DNA from: Acinetobacter suaedae
Lineage (GTDB): Bacteria; Pseudomonadota; Gammaproteobacteria; Pseudomonadales; Moraxellaceae
Reading direction: 5' to 3'
Assembly (NCBI RefSeq): GCF_008630915.1
Contig: NZ_CP043909.1
Span: 2,542,001-2,606,000, forward strand
Length of the DNA: 64,000 nucleotides
Below the pieces are notes generated by a model, which did not search any database, was not told the origin of the DNA, and saw only the letters and a program-made list of their open reading frames with translations. Position numbers and translations under genes: made by a program. Positions 19,552-34,372 of the stretch are shown piece after piece; the stretch's first letter is position 1; the number at the start of each line of letters is the position of its first letter.

Positions 19552-20553
19552 TTATAAACCATTCACTCTCATTCTTAGATTCGTTACTGATGCGCCCGTC
19601 AAACCAAAACTTCCCATAGATGCATTTGGTAAATTATTAAATACATTTGCTTGCTGTGCGTTGTTCGTACCCAGTAACACATTATTTAATTGCAAATTAA
19701 ATTTATCTGTTGTGCCTGCATGTCCAAAAACAAAGCCTCCAGGATTAGTACCGTTAGCACTTTCTATTCCAGCATAAAAACCTGTCAGACCAAAAGGAGA
19801 ACCATTATGCCCAGTAAACTTAAAATCAAAACTTGCACCAATTGGAGCGGTAGTGGCATCACCAGATGTTGCGTAATCAGAGACCAGCATGATATTACAG
19901 CCATCACCCGCTCCACAAATCGAGTCAATTGCACCACCGAACTTGATCATATTTCCTTGCGGTGCTGAACCTAATTGGATATTCATGGTCGGTTTATTTG
20001 CAGCAAATACAATATCAATACCACCTAAACGTAAGATTTCTTTAACATCACTTTTAAGCAAAGTACCAGAACTAAATATGGAATTTTGTGTATAGGTTGT
20101 TCCACTAATACTAGATAAAGCGTTTGCGGCTGCTGCATAGACAGAGAATGGGGAAATTCGTATGCCTGTCACATTGTCATTAAATGCTAGACCAATATTT
20201 ACAAATGCATTGCTTGCTGTACCTGCATCGGTATCTATCGTCGCACGAACACCTAACATGGTTTTTGAGCTACCATTTAAACCAGAAATCTTCACTGGAG
20301 CTTCTGAGCTTTGGCCAGCAACACCAGCAATCACCAATCCAGCTCGATTTGTATAATCTGTAGTCAGACCATCATTATCAATCATTGCTAATTGATTAAA
20401 TTGAATATTGGATTCAACACCAATTGTTAGACCATCTTGTCCTGTCATTGCTGAAAGACTTTGATCATCCATCGGTTGCATTGCTAAAGTCAAAGGACTT
20501 ATACACAGCAATGACAAACATCCTAGTTTTTTATTTTTATTCATTGCCCTCAT
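19552..20553 (-). CDS. Secreted protein with TGQDG N-terminal signature (333 aa)
   Basis: A signal peptide (LGCLSLLCISPLTLA) is followed directly by MQPMDDQSLSAMTGQDGL, the signature shared with four upstream proteins. The remainder is low in charge, rich in Gly, Asn, Ser and Thr and alternates hydrophobic residues, suggesting beta structure; it ends TNLRMRVNGL. An internal short loop, CGAGDGC, could form a disulfide. The signature resembles the DUF6160-type N-terminus, and comparable Acinetobacter proteins carry Fil-type names, but no biochemical role can be read. It is the last of the cluster, 158 bp after the preceding gene. An alternative ATG lies nine bases downstream of 20553. Confidence 0.75.
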   Translation of the reverse strand: MRAMNKNKKLGCLSLLCISPLTLAMQPMDDQSLSAMTGQDGLTIGVESNIQFNQLAMIDNDGLTTDYTNRAGLVIAGVAGQSSEAPVKISGLNGSSKTMLGVRATIDTDAGTASNAFVNIGLAFNDNVTGIRISPFSVYAAAANALSSISGTTYTQNSIFSSGTLLKSDVKEILRLGGIDIVFAANKPTMNIQLGSAPQGNMIKFGGAIDSICGAGDGCNIMLVSDYATSGDATTAPIGASFDFKFTGHNGSPFGLTGFYAGIESANGTNPGGFVFGHAGTTDKFNLQLNNVLLGTNNAQQANVFNNLPNASMGSFGLTGASVTNLRMRVNGL

Positions 20554-20711
20554 CCATAGACAAATGTTTAAAATATGTACTCTAGCTTAGCATAATCTAG
20601 AAAAACCACAATGAGATACGTCCGAAAGTTAGTATTTTACTTTTGCCTGACTTTAATAAATAGCTCCGCCTTTTTAATGCAAGTTGGCCTTACTATCCAA
20701 CCCTATGTAGA

Positions 20712-21488
20712 TTAAAGAACTGCACCACACAAATCTTTTGTTCCAGCTGGGTATGTGAACTGCAATTGGCTTCTATCTAAAATCAATTCTTGAGATATTT
20801 CTTGACCGATGATGGAATTACCTACAGGGATTGCATATTGTCCTAAATTCATCTCAAAATAGTAATTTACTGGCTTTGTTGAAGCAGTCCCAACATACCC
20901 ATAATTAATTCCATTAAAAATCATACCAACTTGTTTAGTATCCTGATTAATATAAATCCCTAACCTCTGATAACCTTTTGGCAAAATATTCACATCAAAA
21001 GACTTTCCCCCACCATTTCCTTGGGAAGTAGTGTTATTGTAAACAGCGGCTATTAGCATATTCTGATTTTTGCCTGGATCCCAATTATTTATATATGTAA
21101 TCAATATAGCAAAAGGGCTTTGATCTTGCCCTTCCCCTCTCCCTATTGTAGGTAGAAATACGATATTACCTTCTCCAGAGATTGTAAAAGAAGGCAACTT
21201 GAATTGATATTCATAAGCAATAATTCCAGTCTGAGGCAACGGAATAGTATATCCATCTCCATTCTTAGCATAATAATTTAGTTTAGTTCCCATATCAGGG
21301 TTTGCAGCAACTGTATAAGAAGCCTTCATACCGTTAATACTTGGAAATTTCAAATTTGTGGAGCTTGAATTTGGATAAGACTGCTGTATCTGAGCTTCAG
21401 TTGCATTAAAACTGAAACTACACTGAGCCAATGCTGGATTAAAAATTATTGCGGTAAATAATGTTGTTATTGATAAAATTTTTCTCAT
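20712..21488 (-). CDS. Secreted protein, DUF4882-like (258 aa)
   Basis: A signal peptide (residues 1-21, cut after NPALA) precedes QCSFSFNATEAQIQQSYP. The protein has tyrosine- and asparagine-rich stretches, segments such as FEMNLGQYAIP, and a pair of cysteines near the two ends (QCSF and LCGAVL) that could tie the fold together. Length and character suggest the Acinetobacter DUF4882 family, from memory only. It does not carry the TGQDG signature of its neighbours. It lies 92 bp after the 499-residue gene and 158 bp before the last gene, so it probably belongs to the same unit although spacing is looser. Function unknown. Confidence 0.7.
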   Translation of the reverse strand: MRKILSITTLFTAIIFNPALAQCSFSFNATEAQIQQSYPNSSSTNLKFPSINGMKASYTVAANPDMGTKLNYYAKNGDGYTIPLPQTGIIAYEYQFKLPSFTISGEGNIVFLPTIGRGEGQDQSPFAILITYINNWDPGKNQNMLIAAVYNNTTSQGNGGGKSFDVNILPKGYQRLGIYINQDTKQVGMIFNGINYGYVGTASTKPVNYYFEMNLGQYAIPVGNSIIGQEISQELILDRSQLQFTYPAGTKDLCGAVL

Positions 21489-21580
21489 ACTTTTGTCCTG
21501 TATATATTTAAAATAATTATTTATAAAGCTCCCTTATTATCAGAGAGCTTGCTTTCATTTTATATAAGATTCTTATTAAG

Positions 21581-23080
21581 TTAACAGAACTTCAAACCAC
21601 CAAAACAGTTAGAAACAGGCTTTTGATGCCCATCTAAAAGTAAGTTTTCCAATACCATAATAGCACGAGCATCATCGGCTAAACGTACATCACCAATACC
21701 TTTGTAAATAGGAGTACCAAATAAAGCACCAAAGGCCTCTCCAAGACTAAGATCAATCCGATTATTCGATAAATAGTCTGTAATAAATGTAGCTATTTGA
21801 GGAAGCACATCATGCATAGGAATTCCTGTGGTTGGATTTAAGGCTCCAAAATCTAAAGGATCTTTAAAAGATAACCACCATCCCGGTTGAGCAATATCAT
21901 TCGGATCCACACCAGGCCATTGTAGTGCTGTATTTTGTAATGCAAGATAACCACCACTACTAATTGGCAAATTATGAATCAAGTTAAAGTTTTGTTTAAC
22001 CTGTACATTAGCCTTTAGATTGGTAATATAAGAACAATTGGTTTTATTGATAACTGCTGCACAGCCTGCTGATGTAGTTCCTTTTGCCCCCATAAAAAAA
22101 GTTGCTTCATCAACCAATCCAAGAATGGACTCATCTAAGGTCATCGCAATCCCGCCATTATCAGCACCAATCGCAATAGTTGGAATCGGGACATCTTTTA
22201 CCACAAGATTCAGTTGTTTCATGCGACTCCCTGTGACAATCGTTTCAGGGAAGTTAAAAGAAACATTCTGACGAGGTACATTAATTCCCCAAATTGGATT
22301 GCCATTATAATGATATAGATTCTCAGACCCTTGGGCTCCAGCAGGAGCTTGATAGCTTCCAGATCCAGATGTCATCTTGTTTGAGTTCGTGAATGCTACT
22401 CGATCTAATCCAAGTGCTCGTACTTTTGCATAAATTAATTGGTCTGCGGTCGTACCAAACATTGCATCCTGTGTAAACGCATTCACGGGCGTTTCGCCTA
22501 CCTTAATGAAACCACTAAAGGTATTGATCCCACCTCCAGTTGACAACCCGTTACCATCAATATCATTCCGTGTGCCTGCTGTTAGATAACCTAAAATTTC
22601 TTCAGCACTCAATCGAAAACCTGCAATTTCACGCGTAGAAGCACTATTAGGGTTCTTGATTGCAAACTCAATAAAAGGATTGGTAATCACAGCACTGGTA
22701 TTGGCACGTCCTTTTGACCATGTAGGTGTACCATCAGCCAATTTCCCATCTGGTGGGCCACTTAATGAGACATTTTCCATATCGATATCACAACCATCTG
22801 GCCCATTTCGTCCACCACAACCCAATTGTAATGCACGAATATTGGCATTCAACTCCATTTTTGCTTCTAGGCCTAATTTATAGTAACCAAAATTTTGCAA
22901 TGGATTAGATGCATTCGGTGCAGTAAAACCTAAGGATAAAAGTGCCTGACCTTGTATAGAAGATAACTCTGTATCCGTCATTTCGACGAGACTATCATTA
23001 CTTGCCCACGTGTGAGTAGAAAACATCGTCATGAGTAAGCAAGAGGTCAATATTGATTTTTTAATTCCATTTTTCATCAT
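21581..23080 (-). CDS. Secreted protein with degenerate TGQ signature (499 aa)
   Basis: After a signal peptide ending in THTWA, the mature protein begins SNDSLVEMTDTELSSIQGQA, a diverged form of the operon's shared signature. Cysteine pairs occur early (LGCGGRNGPDGC) and late (GCAAVINKTNC), and the protein ends in a C-x6-C arrangement (NCFGGLKFC) with the last cysteine at the very C-terminus. Composition suggests beta structure. The start ATG-ATG at 23080 has AGGAAG upstream, 20 bp after the previous gene. Function unknown; likely exported to the periplasm or cell surface with its neighbours. Confidence 0.75.
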   Translation of the reverse strand: MMKNGIKKSILTSCLLMTMFSTHTWASNDSLVEMTDTELSSIQGQALLSLGFTAPNASNPLQNFGYYKLGLEAKMELNANIRALQLGCGGRNGPDGCDIDMENVSLSGPPDGKLADGTPTWSKGRANTSAVITNPFIEFAIKNPNSASTREIAGFRLSAEEILGYLTAGTRNDIDGNGLSTGGGINTFSGFIKVGETPVNAFTQDAMFGTTADQLIYAKVRALGLDRVAFTNSNKMTSGSGSYQAPAGAQGSENLYHYNGNPIWGINVPRQNVSFNFPETIVTGSRMKQLNLVVKDVPIPTIAIGADNGGIAMTLDESILGLVDEATFFMGAKGTTSAGCAAVINKTNCSYITNLKANVQVKQNFNLIHNLPISSGGYLALQNTALQWPGVDPNDIAQPGWWLSFKDPLDFGALNPTTGIPMHDVLPQIATFITDYLSNNRIDLSLGEAFGALFGTPIYKGIGDVRLADDARAIMVLENLLLDGHQKPVSNCFGGLKFC

Positions 23081-23100
23081 TTTCTTCCTATATTACTCAA

Positions 23101-25497
23101 TCAATTACGCGGTTTTAGCATGAATTCAGATCGAATCTGCCCACCAGTCATAACCATTTCTCCAAGACGCTGTGCTCGATTATTGGCAGCATCTGCTCTT
23201 GGATAGAAGTTAATGTCTTTTACTCGGAAAACATCATTTGGATTTCGATCAGGATTAAAATCAAAACCAAAGTTAAAACCTACATTATCTTTATTAATTA
23301 CAATCGCATTATTAAACTGTATCAAACCAGACATATTATCCAAACCGATACTAGCGTCATCGATTGGATCACTTACTTGCAACGTACCGTCTTTTAAACG
23401 ATAACGTCCAACAACAGACAAACGATTACCATTATTCGCTGAAATTTCATTATTTGGAATTAAACTAAAATTCATATCACCTAAAAATTTCAGTTTTAAA
23501 CCGAGCAACACATCATCTTTAGTGTTGAATGCATTAATAATGACAGGAGTTGCACTATTAGGATCATTATAAGTTGGTAAATAACCAGCTGCGATTTCAG
23601 CAGCCATAACCATCAGTAAATCTTTTAATTCAACATTTACGTTACCACTTTCAAAACCCATACTGCCATAGCCACGCAATAACATATCAATATTGCGTAA
23701 ACCCATATAATAGTTTTTATCACCATCAACAATCAGAATTGATGTTGTTTTACTTCCATCACTATTACGCCCCTCAGTACTCAGCCCTAAAGCTAAACCT
23801 AAACGCTGTGAATCAGTTACAGTAGAACGTGTAACCATATTATTTGAATTATTCAAGTTAAATACTTCACCCGTATAAGATGTTGCATAAGTGGCAATAT
23901 TCGCATTGACATTGTAAAAAGGTAAGCCCAAACCCCATTTATTATTAAGTCCTGTACTTGGGTCTATTTTATTTGCAGCAGAGACACCACTACTTGACGT
24001 GAAACGCCCACGTCGTGAAAGCGCTTGGAAATCTGCGCCACGCACTGCTATAACTAAACTATAAGGATTTTCTGGCTGGTTATGAATCTGTTGTAGATAG
24101 TCTGCAGATGTCGTCAGTGTACCTGTCGCAGTCCCACCAAAACGGGAATTACGTAACACAGAGTTTTCAGGCATTTTTAAATGACGTGTATTTGCAAGAT
24201 TGATATAGACATTTCCACTATCAAAATAAGCACGTTGATTAGAATTGATAACGAGCGGACTGAGATCCCCAAACTCAAAACCAAAGGTATTGCTACCCGC
24301 TCCTCCAATTTCTAAAGTTGTGGCTTTGCTATCATCACCAGCTAGCATCGCATCACCTTTTTGAGTAAATTCCCCTCTTAAGCGTAGTGCTAACCCTGTT
24401 GAACCGATCACGGTTCCATCAGCACCATTTGCTGTTGTATTTGCATCACTTGCAAAACCCAGTACATTATTCAATGTATGTGTATTGGTTTGGTTATTGT
24501 CAACAGGTGCGGCTAAGCCATTGGCACTTGTACCGCGTAACTGTAAGGAACCATTCACAGTACGACCACTCATTCCTACACGAATCAAGCCTTTACTATT
24601 ATCGAGATTATAAACTGGTGAGTTTGGGTCAATTGTTACATTACCTTTGGTCATCAGCTCAATATTCAGCCCTGCACTTGTTCCTGTATAAGTCCCTGTT
24701 TCAGCACCAAGTTGGTTTGGATCAGTCACTCTTGTGAAATCAACATAGCCATATGTAGTATTCGGGCTATTGAGTTTACTTGCAGAAGCAGAACCTAAAT
24801 TAGTTTGTAGAATCATCCCTTTCGCCGCATCAACGTACATTGCGCCTTTGCCTAGAAAGTTAAAATTGAAATTTTTTAAAATAAGTTGATTAAACTGGTT
24901 TGCTGTTCCTGTACCTAAACCTGTATAAAGATTAATGTTTTTCAAACCAAGCTGCAGTGAAGATTGAGAATTGGAGTTAAATAAACCATCACGAGTACTA
25001 AGTGCTATCACTTGTGGTGATCCTGTTTGGATCGCAAAATTTCCGATCGCTGTATTACAGTTTACGGTAGGTGTTTGAGCACAAATCTGAAAATTATTAA
25101 CTGAAATCGTAGTCGGTTGTGACTCAATGTGTAAATCTAATCCCGTCTTCGAACCATTTGACCCCGTATTAATTTTAAAATGCGTACCTAGCGTATAATT
25201 TCCAGCACCAGAGCCCGCATCATAAGCCATATTTTTACGGACTCTTACATCATTCGCTACAGCTCTAAGAGATTGCTCAACATTATTTGCCATACCAGCC
25301 TGATCTTGCCAATAAAGTTGATCAATTTTCACTTCATCATATTCAAGTTGTAATGAAACACCATCTTGACCATTGACCATACGTAAATCACGATCTTGTA
25401 ATTCTTGCAACGCATAGGCACTTTGTGTCAAGACCAAGATACTGCTTGCCAATGCTGTTAAAACAAAATGGCGTTGTGTTTTTGCAATCCTTTTCAT
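23101..25497 (-). CDS. Large secreted protein with NGQDG signature (798 aa)
   Basis: The largest protein of the cluster. A signal peptide cut after QSAYA is followed by LQELQDRDLRMVNGQDGV. The body is rich in Asn, Gly, Leu and Thr, repeatedly forms segments such as LKLKFLGDMNFSLIPNN and NKDNVGFNFGFDFNPD, and looks like a long beta-rich fold with possible internal repeats. It ends GGQIRSEFMLKPRN. The frame is open back to a GTG at 25542 within the previous gene, but the ATG at 25497 has AGGA eight bases upstream and gives a standard signal peptide. The gap to the previous gene is then 19 bp. Function unknown. Confidence 0.75.
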   Translation of the reverse strand: MKRIAKTQRHFVLTALASSILVLTQSAYALQELQDRDLRMVNGQDGVSLQLEYDEVKIDQLYWQDQAGMANNVEQSLRAVANDVRVRKNMAYDAGSGAGNYTLGTHFKINTGSNGSKTGLDLHIESQPTTISVNNFQICAQTPTVNCNTAIGNFAIQTGSPQVIALSTRDGLFNSNSQSSLQLGLKNINLYTGLGTGTANQFNQLILKNFNFNFLGKGAMYVDAAKGMILQTNLGSASASKLNSPNTTYGYVDFTRVTDPNQLGAETGTYTGTSAGLNIELMTKGNVTIDPNSPVYNLDNSKGLIRVGMSGRTVNGSLQLRGTSANGLAAPVDNNQTNTHTLNNVLGFASDANTTANGADGTVIGSTGLALRLRGEFTQKGDAMLAGDDSKATTLEIGGAGSNTFGFEFGDLSPLVINSNQRAYFDSGNVYINLANTRHLKMPENSVLRNSRFGGTATGTLTTSADYLQQIHNQPENPYSLVIAVRGADFQALSRRGRFTSSSGVSAANKIDPSTGLNNKWGLGLPFYNVNANIATYATSYTGEVFNLNNSNNMVTRSTVTDSQRLGLALGLSTEGRNSDGSKTTSILIVDGDKNYYMGLRNIDMLLRGYGSMGFESGNVNVELKDLLMVMAAEIAAGYLPTYNDPNSATPVIINAFNTKDDVLLGLKLKFLGDMNFSLIPNNEISANNGNRLSVVGRYRLKDGTLQVSDPIDDASIGLDNMSGLIQFNNAIVINKDNVGFNFGFDFNPDRNPNDVFRVKDINFYPRADAANNRAQRLGEMVMTGGQIRSEFMLKPRN

Positions 25498-25516
25498 AAC
25501 CATTTTCCTTTTTATT

Positions 25517-26215
25517 TTAACAACGTGGATGTGCTGTACCACAAGAGAAAATTTTGATATTGCCTGTTAATGACAAATTACCATTCATATTTACACCAAT
25601 AAAACCTCTCTCTTTATTAGCATCAAAACCACTCCCACCATAAGGTGTCGCTGGCGTTAAATATCCTGGTAAATTATTTGATCCAGTAGAACAGTTTGCA
25701 CCACTTTCAGTGCAAGTATCTGTTTCGATAGATAATGATTGAAATCCCACATTTCTAAATTCAATTGGTTTGGTAGGATTAAAACCTAATTTAATTGCTG
25801 CATGAGAAACGCCATTATAGATGACGTCCTCACCATCCAATTTAATCTCTTGGATATTCACAGTCCCTTGTATACCTTTCATCACCAACCATTGCTTACG
25901 TCCTGTAGGTGATGGAATACGATTCCCTTGAGCATCATAAGTATCTTGTGTTCCATCATGGTAACGGTTATTCAACGATAGTGCTAAACGACAATATAAT
26001 AGATCCTCACATAAGAAATTAGCGTTACTATCATGATTCAGACTAACCTTTAATGACAAATCAGCCCCAGCCTGCCCAGTAATATTTTGTAAGCTTTTAT
26101 CATCTAAGCTTTCCATGGCAAATAAGGATGTTGACAAAACAAAGAGGCTTAGACCTTTGATTAAAAAAGTCATCCCACCATGATAGTTTTGCTTTTTATA
26201 ATAAAGAAACTTCAT
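25517..26215 (-). CDS. Small secreted protein with TGQAG signature (232 aa)
   Basis: A hydrophobic signal region (LIKGLSLFVLSTSLFA) is followed by MESLDDKSLQNITGQAGADL. The mature part has Cys pairs LCEDLLYC and TCTESGANC and ends with C-x6-C (SCGTAHPRC), the final cysteine being the C-terminal residue, the same terminal layout as the 499-residue neighbour. The ATG at 26215 opens the frame; an in-frame ATG 42 bases later (MTFLIKG) would give a shorter, more usual signal peptide. It begins 12 bp after the 688-residue gene. Function unknown. Confidence 0.72.
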   Translation of the reverse strand: MKFLYYKKQNYHGGMTFLIKGLSLFVLSTSLFAMESLDDKSLQNITGQAGADLSLKVSLNHDSNANFLCEDLLYCRLALSLNNRYHDGTQDTYDAQGNRIPSPTGRKQWLVMKGIQGTVNIQEIKLDGEDVIYNGVSHAAIKLGFNPTKPIEFRNVGFQSLSIETDTCTESGANCSTGSNNLPGYLTPATPYGGSGFDANKERGFIGVNMNGNLSLTGNIKIFSCGTAHPRC

Positions 26216-26227
26216 CGCCTTATATCC

Positions 26228-28294
26228 TTATAGGCCCGTTGTTGTTAACTTAAAATGCTGAATCAATAGACCATCTATAACGGCTGAGCCGAAGTTATTA
26301 CTCACCGTAGCACCGGTCGGTTGCATATTATTAATACGCCCTGCAATATCTGCTGGTGTTGTGGTTTGGATTCCTAAAATTTGATTATTGGTGTTTTGGC
26401 GCCAAGTTGTTTCGTATGGATCAGGACGATTTAAAGAAGGATGAGGCTGACCAGTGATTGGAGCTTTAGGTGCTACAGCACCCCAACTTCCCCAATCCCC
26501 CCAACATCTACTCAACCCTAGGAATCCACAGTTTACTTGTGTGCGAGATCGTTGCCAAACTTGGGTAAAATCTTGTTGCACAGAACTTTGCAATCCTGTT
26601 CCAGATTTCAATTCACCAATCGAAACTCCATAAGCACCAATTCCTTTGTGTGCGGTGAGTTGATTGGTCACAGGATTGTACTCAGTTGAGCCAATGGTAA
26701 TACTACTATGCGTTGCTTTACTTCCCTGGTAGCCTGAAATATTTGAGTTACCACACTGATAAATATTACAAGTCGAGCCTAAATAAGTCACACCCGAATC
26801 AACACTTGCCGCAGGATCAATATGTTCATAACGCGTGTAAATACGACGATAAACTTCTTGTACATTTGGAATTCTGGCTAGTTCTATGGAGAAATTATTT
26901 CCATCAGTACTTAGCATCAAGGGTTGATATAAATTCCCTAATACCAAGTTCATATTAACGTCATAGAGAAAAAGCCCATCTGCATTCGAATTCGGTTGAA
27001 AGTTTGGAACCACTCCACCTAATGCAGGTGTACTATTATCAGTTGCACCACCAACCAATTCCTGAGTACTAATCCTAAATACACTGGTTGCAGTTGGCGC
27101 GCTCCAACTATTAGTTCCTTTAGCTCTTAAACGACGGGTAGTAAAACCATTTTGATTTAAACATTGTCCCACTTGCACGGATCCACCAGTAGTGTTTGGC
27201 TTAGGTGATGTACACATACCACCACTTGGAAAACTTCCAGAAACGCTATCATTAGTAGGAGGATCATATGAGGTTCTAATACCATTAGTATTATTCGATG
27301 CATTACCTTGAGCACTAGTAATCGTAGTTCCTGTAGCCAATACACCATTTTCGAAGAAAGTATTCGTTGTCGGATTATAATCGACTTGTACAATTTCTCG
27401 AGTTACAGTCTGATTACTCACTGTTCCACGCTTTGTATCAGTTGCACCACTATTTAATCGGACCAAACCAGCGACACCAAAAGTTTGGTTATAATTAGTA
27501 TTCAAACCATAGTTGAAAGTTTTTGTTGTCTCAACACCATTCACTTTCATTAGGGCATCATAAGTTCCGCCCATCGCAGGTGAAACACCACCTAATGTTT
27601 GGAATACCTTTAAATTTGAACCATTGATGCTAAATCCATCCCACACAGCAGCTAAACGTAATCGGTTACTCAATCCATCTAGACCATTCTCAACAATATT
27701 TGCATCTCTTTGAAAAATATCAGTCCACAATCCGAGCTTTAAGTTATAGGCTGAAGACTCTGCACTTCCTGATGCTGGAAGTGTAGTATGGCGTAAAGGG
27801 GCTTCTAAAGTTAAATAAGTAACGTTTTCAATATTACCGACAAAATTCGGGACATTATCATCTGTTAGTGTTTTGATCACCCACGGGTTCGAAGCAGATC
27901 CCCAAGAGTCAATTGGTCGTCCATATAACGTCCCCCAATCACTCCCATTAATGGCTGCACCTACATTTTTATTTGATTGAGATAGAGACAAACCATAAAG
28001 CCAAGCGTCAGCCTTTTTATAACCTTTTGCTGTTGCTGTTGCACTTAATGGTCCAACAGGAATTAGACGGATTGAACCAGCACCATATGTTCCTGCACCA
28101 CTATTAGCAGTATCTGCACCATTAAATCGAAAAGAAAAATTTTCAGGTAAAAGCGCTATACCTTCACCTGTTGCTTGGCTAAGTCCCTCGTCAGAAATTT
28201 CTTGTAGCGCAAAAGCAGTTTGACTCATACACAAGCCAATAAAACTTGCCAACAACGTTTTTTTAAAAGCTACCGTAGAAGTACATCCAGCCAT
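26228..28294 (-). CDS. Secreted protein with TGEG signature, first gene of the operon (688 aa)
   Basis: A signal peptide cut after MSQTAFA is followed by LQEISDEGLSQATGEGIAL. The long mature region is rich in Asn, Gly, Thr and Ser, includes several cysteines (MCTSPKP, GQCLNQN, STCNIYQCGN, VNCGFLGLSRCWGDWGSW in two parts VNCGFLGLSRC and WGDWGSW) and ends with alternating hydrophobic residues LLIQHFKLTTTGL. The ATG at 28294 has AGGA seven bases upstream. Comparable proteins in Acinetobacter are sometimes named as Fil pilus-assembly proteins, but no usher, chaperone or pilin gene is nearby to support that role. Confidence 0.75.
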   Translation of the reverse strand: MAGCTSTVAFKKTLLASFIGLCMSQTAFALQEISDEGLSQATGEGIALLPENFSFRFNGADTANSGAGTYGAGSIRLIPVGPLSATATAKGYKKADAWLYGLSLSQSNKNVGAAINGSDWGTLYGRPIDSWGSASNPWVIKTLTDDNVPNFVGNIENVTYLTLEAPLRHTTLPASGSAESSAYNLKLGLWTDIFQRDANIVENGLDGLSNRLRLAAVWDGFSINGSNLKVFQTLGGVSPAMGGTYDALMKVNGVETTKTFNYGLNTNYNQTFGVAGLVRLNSGATDTKRGTVSNQTVTREIVQVDYNPTTNTFFENGVLATGTTITSAQGNASNNTNGIRTSYDPPTNDSVSGSFPSGGMCTSPKPNTTGGSVQVGQCLNQNGFTTRRLRAKGTNSWSAPTATSVFRISTQELVGGATDNSTPALGGVVPNFQPNSNADGLFLYDVNMNLVLGNLYQPLMLSTDGNNFSIELARIPNVQEVYRRIYTRYEHIDPAASVDSGVTYLGSTCNIYQCGNSNISGYQGSKATHSSITIGSTEYNPVTNQLTAHKGIGAYGVSIGELKSGTGLQSSVQQDFTQVWQRSRTQVNCGFLGLSRCWGDWGSWGAVAPKAPITGQPHPSLNRPDPYETTWRQNTNNQILGIQTTTPADIAGRINNMQPTGATVSNNFGSAVIDGLLIQHFKLTTTGL

Positions 28295-30733: not shown

Positions 30734-30885
30734 ATTCTTTAGTCTAAAAAACCTGTAAAAAAAGTTGCCATCCCCTTGAGAATACGGTAAGAGTAGAACA
30801 TATTTAATTACGTAAAAATGTACTGAATATTAAATAAAGCAGCCAAATGATGGATTTATGGTGTGCATATAAACAGGAGATAGTA

Positions 30886-31890
30886 ATGAAAAAATGGCCC
30901 CAACTCATTTTACTCGGTTTAGCAATAACAGGTTTATCTGCTTGTTCTGACAATACTGGCAACAAAAATGCAAGCCAAAAAGGCAGTAGCGCAACAACAA
31001 GCGCCAATAAACTGGAAACACGATTTGTTAATATTGCAACTGGTGGAGCTTCAGGTCCATATAATGTCATCGCAACAAATTTGGCTGAAATTTACCATAA
31101 AACTTATGGCGTTAACTCTAAGACGCAGACCACAGGTGCTTCTGTAGAAAATCTAAATTTGTTAAAGCAAAACAAAGTAGAAATGGCTTTTGTAATGAGC
31201 GACAGTCTCACAGAAGCAATCAATGGACAAGGCAGCTTTAAAGATAAAATTACCAATGTTCAGCAAATCGCAGCGCTCTATCCGAACTATGTGCAAATCG
31301 TTACCTCAAAAAAATCTGGAATTAAAAATATTGAGGATTTGAAAGGTAAACGTATCGCAGTTGGTGCTCAGAACTCAGGTGTTGAAGTCAATGCTCGTAC
31401 TTTGTTGAATGGTTTTGGTATTACCTACAAGGATGTAAAAGTAGATTATTTAGGTTATGCCGAAGCAGCGGATGCATTGAAAGGTGGAAAACTAGATGCA
31501 GCCTTCCTTACCAGTGGTATTCCAAACTCGTCACTGATGGAATTGCAACGTGGTTATGATCTACAGTTAGTCAGTATCAATCCTGACAAGATTAAAGAAA
31601 TTGCCAAAGATCAGGCCTATTTCTTACCAATGATCATTCCAAAAGGAACCTATGACAATGCTGAGGATATTCCAACTGCAGCAATCATGAATGCTTTAGT
31701 CGTTCGCTCTGATTTATCTGAAGATGATGTTTATAAATTGACTAAAACCTTCTTCGAAAGCCTTGATGCTTTAGCCAATACTCACCAAGCAGCAAAAGAC
31801 ATCACTTTGCAAGGTGCTCAAAATGGTTTAGTCGCACCACTCCATCCAGGTGCTAAAAAATACTACGACGAGGTCGCGGCAGCTCAATGA
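30886..31890 (+). CDS. TAXI-family TRAP transporter solute-binding lipoprotein
   Basis: The receptor of a tripartite TRAP importer. The 334-residue protein begins with a lipoprotein signal ending in LSAC (cysteine about residue 20) followed by a linker and the TAXI motif region FVNIATGGASGPYNVIATNLAE. The open frame extends to 30847, but the ATG at 30886 has a strong AGGAGA and gives a proper lipobox. Binding the receptor to the membrane through lipid is less common than a free periplasmic one. Its stop overlaps the next start by 4 bp. The ligand is unknown; TAXI systems characterised so far take up organic acids or amino acids. Confidence 0.9.
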   Translation: MKKWPQLILLGLAITGLSACSDNTGNKNASQKGSSATTSANKLETRFVNIATGGASGPYNVIATNLAEIYHKTYGVNSKTQTTGASVENLNLLKQNKVEMAFVMSDSLTEAINGQGSFKDKITNVQQIAALYPNYVQIVTSKKSGIKNIEDLKGKRIAVGAQNSGVEVNARTLLNGFGITYKDVKVDYLGYAEAADALKGGKLDAAFLTSGIPNSSLMELQRGYDLQLVSINPDKIKEIAKDQAYFLPMIIPKGTYDNAEDIPTAAIMNALVVRSDLSEDDVYKLTKTFFESLDALANTHQAAKDITLQGAQNGLVAPLHPGAKKYYDEVAAAQ

Positions 31891-32363
31891 AAATTATAAG
31901 TGCAGCTTCGGCTGCACTTTTCTGTTTAGCCTTCGGTATTGTTTTATTGGTCAGTTATCCGATTGCAAATACACATGTGATGAGTGAAAAACATAATTGC
32001 ATCATTCGTGAAGCTGACTTTAACTTGCAATGGCGACATTCTGTCGAAAAAACAATATGGCGGGAAAGTTATCATCGTGAAAAAAATGCATTCCGTTTGG
32101 TCTATACCGATCTAATTTCTTTTGGCGCTGGTACACCAAGCGATTACCCTATTATTTCTCAAAAAGATGGCGTGGTCAGAATGGCTGTAAACCAAAAACT
32201 TAAAGAGATTAATTGGACTGTTTCACGAAATATGCAAGGTCAACTGTCCTGGAACAATACGACATGGGCGATTGCAAATGAACTGCCTGATTATAGCCTT
32301 GTGCAGTTTAAGAGTACGTACACACCATTATGGAAGATCTGGTGGTTAGGAGAATGTAGATGA
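31887..32363 (+). CDS. DUF1850 protein of the TRAP operon
   Basis: A 158-residue protein with an N-terminal membrane helix and the DUF1850 pattern NLQWRHSVEKTIWRESY, SFGAGTPSDYP. DUF1850 proteins occur almost exclusively between TAXI receptors and fused TRAP permeases, and this gene is in exactly that position with 4-bp ATGA overlaps on both sides. The function is unknown but clearly tied to the transporter. Confidence 0.85.
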   Translation: MKIISAASAALFCLAFGIVLLVSYPIANTHVMSEKHNCIIREADFNLQWRHSVEKTIWRESYHREKNAFRLVYTDLISFGAGTPSDYPIISQKDGVVRMAVNQKLKEINWTVSRNMQGQLSWNNTTWAIANELPDYSLVQFKSTYTPLWKIWWLGECR

Positions 32364-34372
32364 ATAAACCCGATAACAGTGCAACACCAGAACAGGATGA
32401 TCAAGCCAAACAAAAAGAATTATTAGAAAAGTTTGATAAGGAATCGGTTACACGCACACCCAAGCAGAAATCTGTTGCTCTCTTTATTACCGTTTTAGCA
32501 ATTTGTTATTCACTCTTTCATTTATTTATTACCTACAACCCGTTACCTGAACTAATCCAACGCTCAGCACACGTGTCTATCGGTTTAGCACTAATTTTCT
32601 TACTCTATCCAGCACGACAAAGTAGTGATCGACAGCATATTGCATGGTATGACTGGATTTTAATGTTAGCCTCCTTTGCCTCACTAGGCTATTTATGGAT
32701 TGAATATCAAAACATCATGACCTCTCGTGGTGGTATTCCCAATACGTTAGATATCGTGTTTGCAATCATGACGGTTGTGTTAGTCATTGAAGCGGCACGA
32801 CGAATCATGGGCTGGATGCTTCCAATTTTAGGGTTGGTTTTTCTCGCCTATCCATTTATTAGTCATTTTAATTGGATGCCTGACCGTTTACTCACTCGAC
32901 CATATAGTGTGAGCGATATTTTTGGTCAAATGTATTTAAAAACTGAGGGCTTGTATTCATCAGCCATCGGTGCATCGGTCACGTTCATTTTCTTATTTAT
33001 CCTATTTGGATCATTTCTTGCCAAATCTGGTATGGGCAAACTGTTCAATGATCTCGCAATGGCTTTAGCAGGTCATAAACAAGGTGGTCCTGCAAAGGTT
33101 GCTGTGATTTCTAGTGGATTTATGGGCAGTATTAACGGTACAGCAGTCGCAAATGTGGTGGGAACAGGCTCCTTCACCATTCCGTTAATGAAGAAAATTG
33201 GCTATCAAAAGAATTTTGCGGGTGCGGTGGAAGCCAGTGCCTCGGTTGGTGGACAAATTCTCCCACCAATTATGGGCGCGAGTGCGTTCATTATGGCTGA
33301 AACAACAGGAGTCAGCTATGGCACTATTGCTCTTGCTGCTGTACTCCCTGCATTGCTCTATTATCTTGGGGTAATCTCCCAAGTGCACTTCCGTGCAGGT
33401 CGAGATAATTTAAAAGGCTTGCCTAAAGCTGACCTTCCTCGCGTTAAAGAAGTATTAAAAGAACGCGGACATTTACTGATTCCAATCGTGGCTTTAGTCT
33501 TTTTCTTATTTCAATCTATGCCTGTCAGTTATGCAGCCGTCTACACGATTCTTTTAACAATCGTAGTTGCCAATCTCCGCAAAACCACGCGTATGGGATT
33601 CAAACAGATTTTAGAGGCGCTTGCTGATGGTGCAAAACAATCCTTATCAGTGATGTCTGCCTGTGCGGTGGTTGGTTTGATTATTGGTGTAGTGAGCTTA
33701 ACCAGCTTCGGATCGGTCATGACCTCTTATATCATGAGTGTTGGCGCAGGAAATCTGTTCCTGACCTTATTATTTACTATGGTCGCTTCCATGATTTTAG
33801 GTATGGGGCTACCTTCTATTCCAGCTTATATTATCACTGCAACAATGGCTGCTCCTGCTTTGGCCCATTTTGATGTGCCTATCCTCGTTGCTCATATGTT
33901 CGTTTTCTATTTTGGATTATTTGCCAATATTACCCCACCTGTTGCTTTAGCAGCTTTTGCTGGTGCAGGTATTTCGGGTGGTGATCCGATGAAGACTGGT
34001 TTTCAGGCACTCAAATTGTCTCTAGCAGGCTTTATCGTACCTTTCTTGTTTGTCTATAATCCTGCAATGCTAATGATTGATACGACCAATATTGCATTGA
34101 ATGCACGCGAGTTTGCGCTTCCACCAATCTGGAGTATTGTCAGTATTACGGTTACATCAATTGTCGGTATTTTGGCTTTAGGTGCTGCAGTAGAGGGTTA
34201 TTTTAAAACCTCAATGAATCTAGTTTGGCGTTTAATTTTAGGGATCGGTGCGTTGCTGATGATTATGCCTGAGGGCAGAACTGATCTGATCGGAATAGTG
34301 ATGGTCGGTCTTTCAATTGCAATGAATATTTTACAAGCCAAGAAAGAAAGTCCATCATCTTCGAACATTTAA
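32360..34372 (+). CDS. TRAP transporter fused permease (DctQM-type)
   Basis: A 670-residue membrane protein that joins the small four-helix subunit (N-terminal part) and the large permease subunit. Family segments include GFMGSINGTAVANVVGTGSFTIP (read as GFMGSINGTAVANV and VGTGSFTIP), EASASVGGQILPPIMGASAF and GMGLPSIPAYII. It drives substrate uptake with the TAXI lipoprotein and sodium or protons. The start overlaps the DUF1850 stop by 4 bp (ATGA), and a terminator follows 24 bp after the stop. Confidence 0.93.
   Translation: MNKPDNSATPEQDDQAKQKELLEKFDKESVTRTPKQKSVALFITVLAICYSLFHLFITYNPLPELIQRSAHVSIGLALIFLLYPARQSSDRQHIAWYDWILMLASFASLGYLWIEYQNIMTSRGGIPNTLDIVFAIMTVVLVIEAARRIMGWMLPILGLVFLAYPFISHFNWMPDRLLTRPYSVSDIFGQMYLKTEGLYSSAIGASVTFIFLFILFGSFLAKSGMGKLFNDLAMALAGHKQGGPAKVAVISSGFMGSINGTAVANVVGTGSFTIPLMKKIGYQKNFAGAVEASASVGGQILPPIMGASAFIMAETTGVSYGTIALAAVLPALLYYLGVISQVHFRAGRDNLKGLPKADLPRVKEVLKERGHLLIPIVALVFFLFQSMPVSYAAVYTILLTIVVANLRKTTRMGFKQILEALADGAKQSLSVMSACAVVGLIIGVVSLTSFGSVMTSYIMSVGAGNLFLTLLFTMVASMILGMGLPSIPAYIITATMAAPALAHFDVPILVAHMFVFYFGLFANITPPVALAAFAGAGISGGDPMKTGFQALKLSLAGFIVPFLFVYNPAMLMIDTTNIALNAREFALPPIWSIVSITVTSIVGILALGAAVEGYFKTSMNLVWRLILGIGALLMIMPEGRTDLIGIVMVGLSIAMNILQAKKESPSSSNI

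Follow-up and report, generated by a model that had tools for sequence, protein, structure and literature searches.

The 64,000-nucleotide stretch of Acinetobacter suaedae DNA analyzed here (assembly GCF_008630915.1, contig NZ_CP043909.1, positions 2,542,001 to 2,606,000 of the forward strand; hereafter the window) carries between positions 19552 and 28294 a cluster of six minus-strand open reading frames (ORFs), g1 to g6, five of which share a short motif near the N-terminus of the mature protein, referred to below as the leader. The first gene, g1 (26228..28294; 688 aa), encodes a secreted protein with the 15-residue leader LQEISDEGLSQATGE at residues 30-44 (28163..28207, minus strand), and the likewise secreted g2 (25517..26215; 232 aa) carries MESLDDKSLQNITGQ at residues 34-48 (26072..26116). 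The product of g3 (23101..25542) has 813 residues when read from a GTG start and 798 from an alternative ATG at 25497, and combines a DUF6160 N-terminus and the leader LQELQDRDLRMVNGQ (25366..25410; residues 45-59 from the GTG, 30-44 from the ATG) with a large beta-rich body. The secreted g4 (21581..23080; 499 aa) displays LVEMTDTELSSIQGQ at residues 31-45 (22946..22990), g5 (20712..21488; 258 aa) is a secreted DUF4882 protein that lacks the leader, and the FilA-like g6 (19552..20553; 333 aa) bears MQPMDDQSLSAMTGQ at residues 25-39 (20437..20481). An initial annotation of the window had described the first four genes as 12-20 bp apart and the sequences beyond the motif as dissimilar, and both descriptions hold, the intergenic gaps being 12, 19 and 20 bp and the bodies of the five motif proteins being mutually dissimilar.

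In all five proteins the motif is found at, or a few residues past, the predicted Sec cleavage site, as had been proposed. The pattern printed for it lacked one x between L and [TNQ], so that, on inspection, none of the five quoted sequences conforms to it. The corrected pattern, with three x at this place ([LM]-x-x-[LIM]-x-D-x-x-L-x-x-x-[TNQ]-G-[QE]), matches exactly these five genes among the 127 window ORFs that reach 60 aa or more (together 25,133 residues), whereas residue shuffles predict 0.01 matches per window. From the 84 genomes in which g3 has a relative, twenty related clusters were picked to span the identity range, including three chosen for lacking the peptidase FilB, described below. 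Relatives of g1, g2 and g3 were recovered in 20/20 of them, of g4 in 18/20 and of g6 in 12/20, absences being soft, as the stretches ended at ~12.5 kb. No g5 relative was found in any of the 20, the closest cluster examined (L112, 83-89% protein identity) included, hence g5 is probably an interloper that was inserted into the cluster recently. In several Acinetobacter genomes (L105, L106, L107, L108 and L110), the g4 relative is located upstream of g1 and not after g3.

The motif is held by 94 of the 96 genes aligned for the five groups across the window and the related clusters, the two misses being a 77-aa fragment and a piece close to the end of its own locus. With the signal-peptide cut placed by a crude AXA-like rule, without SignalP, the motif follows the cut directly in 71/94 genes and after one to four residues in the other 23, so that it is tied to signal peptides and not randomly placed. 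When the residue following the conserved Gly is numbered -1, the motif spans positions -15 to -1. Of the positions left free by the search pattern, -15 is hydrophobic in 94/94 genes, -10 is Asp in 78/94, and -4 is L, I, V, M or F in 50/94 and otherwise mostly Thr or Ala; hydrophobic residues at -12 and -7, as well as Gly (89/94) or Ala (5/94) at -2, occur at positions that the pattern itself imposes.

DUF6160-type names had been given for such proteins, which is borne out for g6 (41.2 bits), g3 (38.7 bits) and g2 (27.3 bits), which pass the gathering cut-off of PF19657 (27 bits), but not for g4 (13.4 bits) or g1 (no match at E 1). Matches to the FilA model NF050077 all remain below its cut-off of 220 bits (g6 103.5, g3 55.1, g2 22.5, g1 16.3), and g4 and g5 do not match it. 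None of the six window proteins matches a Fap subunit model at E 1, nor do any of them match models of ushers, chaperones, pilins or secretion ATPases, in line with the earlier remark that no such gene is adjacent; the remaining genome was not searched for these pilus and secretion components.

A fil operon (filA, filB, filC, filD, filE and filF) is located ~110 kb from the cluster in the same genome, and its filA has the same motif. NCBIfam names fil as a putative pilus system, FilB as a C39 peptidase and FapD as a maturation endopeptidase. FilB is a stand-alone C39 peptidase (PF03412 at 4.9e-16; FapD at 1.8e-31, 109 bits with a cut-off of 330) that retains the Cys-Gly-x-Ala active-site signature, while FilC is a relative of the amyloid pore protein FapF (1.2e-17, 64 bits with a cut-off of 700), FilF is a lipoprotein judging by its lipobox, and a FadL-like protein is also encoded. 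None of the six fil operon proteins matches any usher, chaperone, type IV pilin or secretion ATPase model, there are no Fap subunit matches among them at E 0.1, and neither the fil operon nor the cluster contains an ABC exporter gene. Since the usual pilus components are missing, and a C39 peptidase and a FapF relative are present, the name of a pilus has a weak foundation, and the Fap amyloid system is the machinery that comes closest; according to passages of the work on Acinetobacter sp. Tol 5, a strain described as nonpathogenic (PMC8411912), its "Fil fimbriae" were deduced from electron microscopy plus FilA bands, and a legend there shows that Edman data exist for Tol 5 FilA (PMC3498257). 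The initial annotation had held that its inference would fall if the proteins belonged to a known pilus locus, of the chaperone-usher or type IV kind, in another part of the genome; this applies by half, as what was found is a distant operon with a putative pilus name, but without the corresponding components. In two further hosts, one from another genus of the same family (G006) and one from another family (G187), a FilB-like gene adjoins motif genes as well as FilC- and FilD-like genes, with scores (310 and 237 bits) below the FilB cut-off of 475. The same two hosts carry, on a contig that differs from that of the FilB-like locus, tandem clusters of three motif genes each (L091 and L092), which are away from C39 genes and resemble the window cluster. 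Genomes that have FilB and genomes that lack it both contain short ORFs of 181-192 aa with weak C39 similarity, and another, of 169 aa, is found at G000:C1:1568499-1568669.

The leader resembles the double-glycine (GG) leaders of bacteriocins. When 91 distinct 24-residue leader pieces were compared with 18,950 NCBIfam models, alongside 91 control pieces from further downstream in the same proteins, the FilA model was matched by 36/91 leader and 3/91 control pieces. Apart from FilA, the only models matched by leader pieces were bacteriocin or lantibiotic ones, namely TIGR01847 (bacteriocin_sig, a bacteriocin-type leader; 11/91, best E 0.007) and, with one piece each, the lichenicidin A2, class I lanthipeptide and lactobin/cerein families. 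Control pieces matched none of these four (0/91), and one of them matched an unrelated CRISPR model. The bacteriocin-model matches are individually weak, and what matters is their selectivity versus the control. For g4, TIGR01847 is the sole match among all models (E 0.12, 13.2 bits), and g2 matches it at E 0.092. A scoring matrix derived from 16 bacteriocin leaders placed 68/91 leaders at or above 7.3 bits in register, versus 1/91 control pieces at any position.

Similar stretches occur beside stand-alone C39 genes elsewhere. Sixty stretches were inspected, 57 of them around the stand-alone C39 matches listed; the C39 gene was recognized in 55 of the stretches, and the count comprised 47 loci. 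Among same-strand signal-peptide genes, GG-leader scores above threshold were obtained for 22/108 located one or two places from the C39 gene versus 5/174 at three or more (p 2.8e-6), and a matrix derived from six Fil leaders only gave 10/108 versus 1/174 (p 3.8e-4); at least one leader-like neighbor was present at 20/47 C39 loci. Seven neighbors outside the Fil-like locus were tested against Fap models, of which two are FapE-like (1e-22 and 1.2e-18), three FapB-like (1.5e-24 to 1.9e-30) and two without a match, and one C39 gene tested against FapD gave 4.9e-85; all five Fap-like neighbors and this C39 gene are below the curated cut-offs. The FapE model spans the leader, at positions 26-43, in two of four neighbor leader pieces (E 0.0027 and 0.11), and for the FapB-like proteins the match may reflect a repeat border and not a leader. 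A leader on FapE-like neighbors fits mass spectrometry data in which, according to passages of the report, FapE was the sole Fap protein lacking peptides from the mature N-terminus (PMC5557850). Stand-alone C39 genes of another subtype (L080, L082 and L084) adjoin proteins whose leader-like stretch ends in Ala-Gly. One genome, G042, has seven C39 matches on short ORFs among the matches listed (L048, L085-L089), several of them flanked by the same two secreted proteins, and these constitute a separate amplified C39 family.

The distribution of the genes also connects the leader with C39 peptidases. A survey of 99 genomes of the genus found FilB together with g3 in 81 and neither of them in 15, with g3 alone in three and FilB alone in none (Fisher p 4e-15, uncorrected for kinship). 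DUF6160 was detected at E 1e-3 in 6/370 gammaproteobacterial genomes, the A. suaedae genome counted, and all six contain a stand-alone C39 ORF (at most 400 aa) among the matches listed, as compared with at least 48/370 overall (p 3.6e-6, or 2.8e-5 without the own genome); C39 genomes were counted by hand, and one 117-aa piece at a contig end was excluded. AlphaFold2 models, computed for g3 (59 sequences, pLDDT 86.5, pTM 0.83) and g6 (50 sequences, pLDDT 76.8, pTM 0.73), place the leader outside the fold in both proteins, as residues 1-58 of g3 and 1-39 of g6 have a pLDDT below 50 and the beta-rich fold starts within a few residues past the G-Q. Both models have a short low-confidence helix at positions -10 to -6, and g3 has one in the signal peptide as well.

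Taken together, the motif is probably a double-glycine-type leader that follows a Sec signal peptide and is removed by FilB, acting in trans from the fil operon. In such a scheme, Sec would carry the proteins over the inner membrane and signal peptidase would cut off the signal peptide, whereupon the exposed 15-residue leader would become a short helix, with positions -12, -7 and -4 occupying a groove of FilB, which is likely periplasmic. FilB would then cleave near the Gly at -2, freeing the beta-rich body, which probably would reach the surface via outer-membrane proteins of the FilC/FilD type. The initial annotation had inferred a common sorting or assembly tag for parts of one exterior structure; the tag is indeed shared, but the evidence favors a C39-type leader and does not show co-assembly.

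Several observations weigh against a leader cleaved by FilB. C39 substrates have G, A or S at -1, whereas this position is Q in 71, E in 21 and K in two of the 94 motif genes (Q, E or K being imposed by the search pattern), which is the strongest objection, and E at -8 is unconserved (22/94). The motif works like a canonical GG leader, yet with Gln or Glu in place of Gly, Ala or Ser it is not classed as one. In the Fap-type neighbors -1 is variable too (the printed cases have G, R, K and M), so that varied residues may be tolerated there by this peptidase group, or it may cut elsewhere or only bind. TIGR01847 matches just two of the five window leaders, at 13.2 and 13.5 bits with a cut-off of 15.7, and the matrix of 16 bacteriocin leaders passes three of the five, g6 (2.6 bits) and g3 (5.2 bits) failing, as does filA (4.3 bits). 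With regard to the neighbor survey, 27/47 C39 loci have no neighbor above the threshold, the 27 opposite-strand neighbors, which were excluded from the test, gave one GG match, and the in-protein control is unclean for the nearest genes, of which 7/46 match, as compared with 2/48 second genes. FilB starts with a hydrophobic stretch, but in this genome no positive charge precedes it. Independent losses are few, so that a phylogenetic pair test, with outgroup states assigned by the analyst, contains four supported pairs, of which two to three agree and none disagrees (p 0.25-0.5). Finally, three genomes (G381, G442 and G463) retain the cluster without FilB and contain no other full stand-alone C39 gene, but a short C39-like ORF at most. 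Their clusters (L112, L120 and L121) still have g1-g4 ORFs with leaders and, although matched stretches in G463 and G442 were flagged with stops, the g3 ORFs there comprise 800 and 744 aa with a leader, hence the cluster can outlive FilB, at least temporarily.

The residue at -1 speaks for the possibility that the leader is recognized but remains on the mature protein. FilB would then have a chaperone role such as that of the C39-like domain in HlyB, or the leader would serve as a docking signal for FilC/FilD. Certain C39-like domains act as chaperones without processing, according to passages of a 2018 review (PMC6173800), and residues +1 to +3 after the motif are fairly conserved as well. 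An uncut leader is nevertheless unlikely, since FilB has kept its active-site signature, neither model includes the leader in the fold, and FapD, the nearest characterized relative of FilB, requires its catalytic Cys for secretion, as stated in passages of the 2017 Fap study (PMC5557850).

The retention of the cluster without FilB would agree with a motif that has no link to C39 peptidases and is an inherited N-terminal piece of DUF6160 or an aid to signal-peptide processing, a view that also draws on the motif abutting the signal-peptide cut and on DUF6160 spanning both signal peptide and motif in three of the five proteins. We regard this as improbable, because a similar register is found on FapE-like and other proteins beside stand-alone C39 genes, because of the restriction of the non-FilA model matches to bacteriocin and lantibiotic families, and because of the co-occurrence with FilB. 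Equally improbable is that the five proteins are subunits of a Fil pilus, with the motif as a contact between subunits. The FilA bands and deduced fimbriae of Tol 5, given in passages of that work (PMC3498257), and the FilA-like g6 would agree with a pilus, but the bodies are dissimilar and reach ~800 aa, the g3 model is a single large beta structure, and usher and pilin genes were seen in neither operon.

The cluster is closest to three known systems. The functional amyloid (Fap) system of Pseudomonas likewise combines Sec-exported substrates with a stand-alone C39 peptidase and a FapF-type pore, to which FilB and FilC are related at scores below the cut-offs, and FapE-like and, less clearly, FapB-like neighbors of C39 genes, all below the FapE and FapB cut-offs, carry a similar leader. 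In contrast, none of the window proteins is matched by a Fap subunit model, their leader, which directly adjoins the signal peptide, has G-Q/E at its end, the Fil side adds a FadL-like protein and FilE/FilF, and most Fil-type substrates are encoded in a separate operon. The Acinetobacter Fil system (FilA-FilF in NCBIfam) is connected through g6, a FilA relative, and through the leader of filA, whereas g6 scores less than half of the FilA cut-off, g1-g4 are outside the named system and the cluster is distant from the operon. With the GG leaders of class II bacteriocins and microcins, which are processed by the C39 domains of ABC exporters, the leader shares hydrophobic residues at -12, -7 and in part -4, and Gly at -2; it differs in that export involves Sec and large proteins instead of an ABC exporter and peptides, in the Q/E at -1, and in that neither operon has an exporter gene.

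NCBIfam already lists FilB under the name of a C39 peptidase and FapD under that of a maturation endopeptidase, and published work has suspected that FapD processes FapE. Passages of the 2017 study call the target of FapD unclear and the Fap proteins devoid of canonical C39 sequences, while suggesting possible processing from GG/GA motifs in FapE (PMC5557850); the 2018 review, in the passages concerned, describes the FapD substrate as undetermined (PMC6173800), and a 2025 review states in part of its text that FapE and FapF are thought to be processed by FapD (PMC12822426). In the searches made of open-access PubMed Central papers, none was found that names the N-terminus of DUF6160 or FilA proteins, or the cluster, as carrying C39-type leaders. 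We lean, if only slightly, towards a general two-step code in Gram-negative bacteria, in which a Sec signal peptide is followed by a C39-type leader that stand-alone C39 peptidases recognize in the periplasm. Such a code would apply to Fap amyloids and Fil proteins as well as further families, a single peptidase would handle in trans the substrates from several operons, and the missing recognition sequence of FapD would be supplied. If this is true, an unexplained class of surface proteins gains a maturation pathway, the DUF6160 proteins of Acinetobacter gain a maturation step that can be tested, substrates become predictable from sequence by way of a readable leader, and the Fil and Fap systems are linked.

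Near the cluster, positions 30847-34372 of the window contain a TRAP transporter set with an NMT1-like binding protein and DctM, the DctM gene of which was found in only 6/30 genomes tested.

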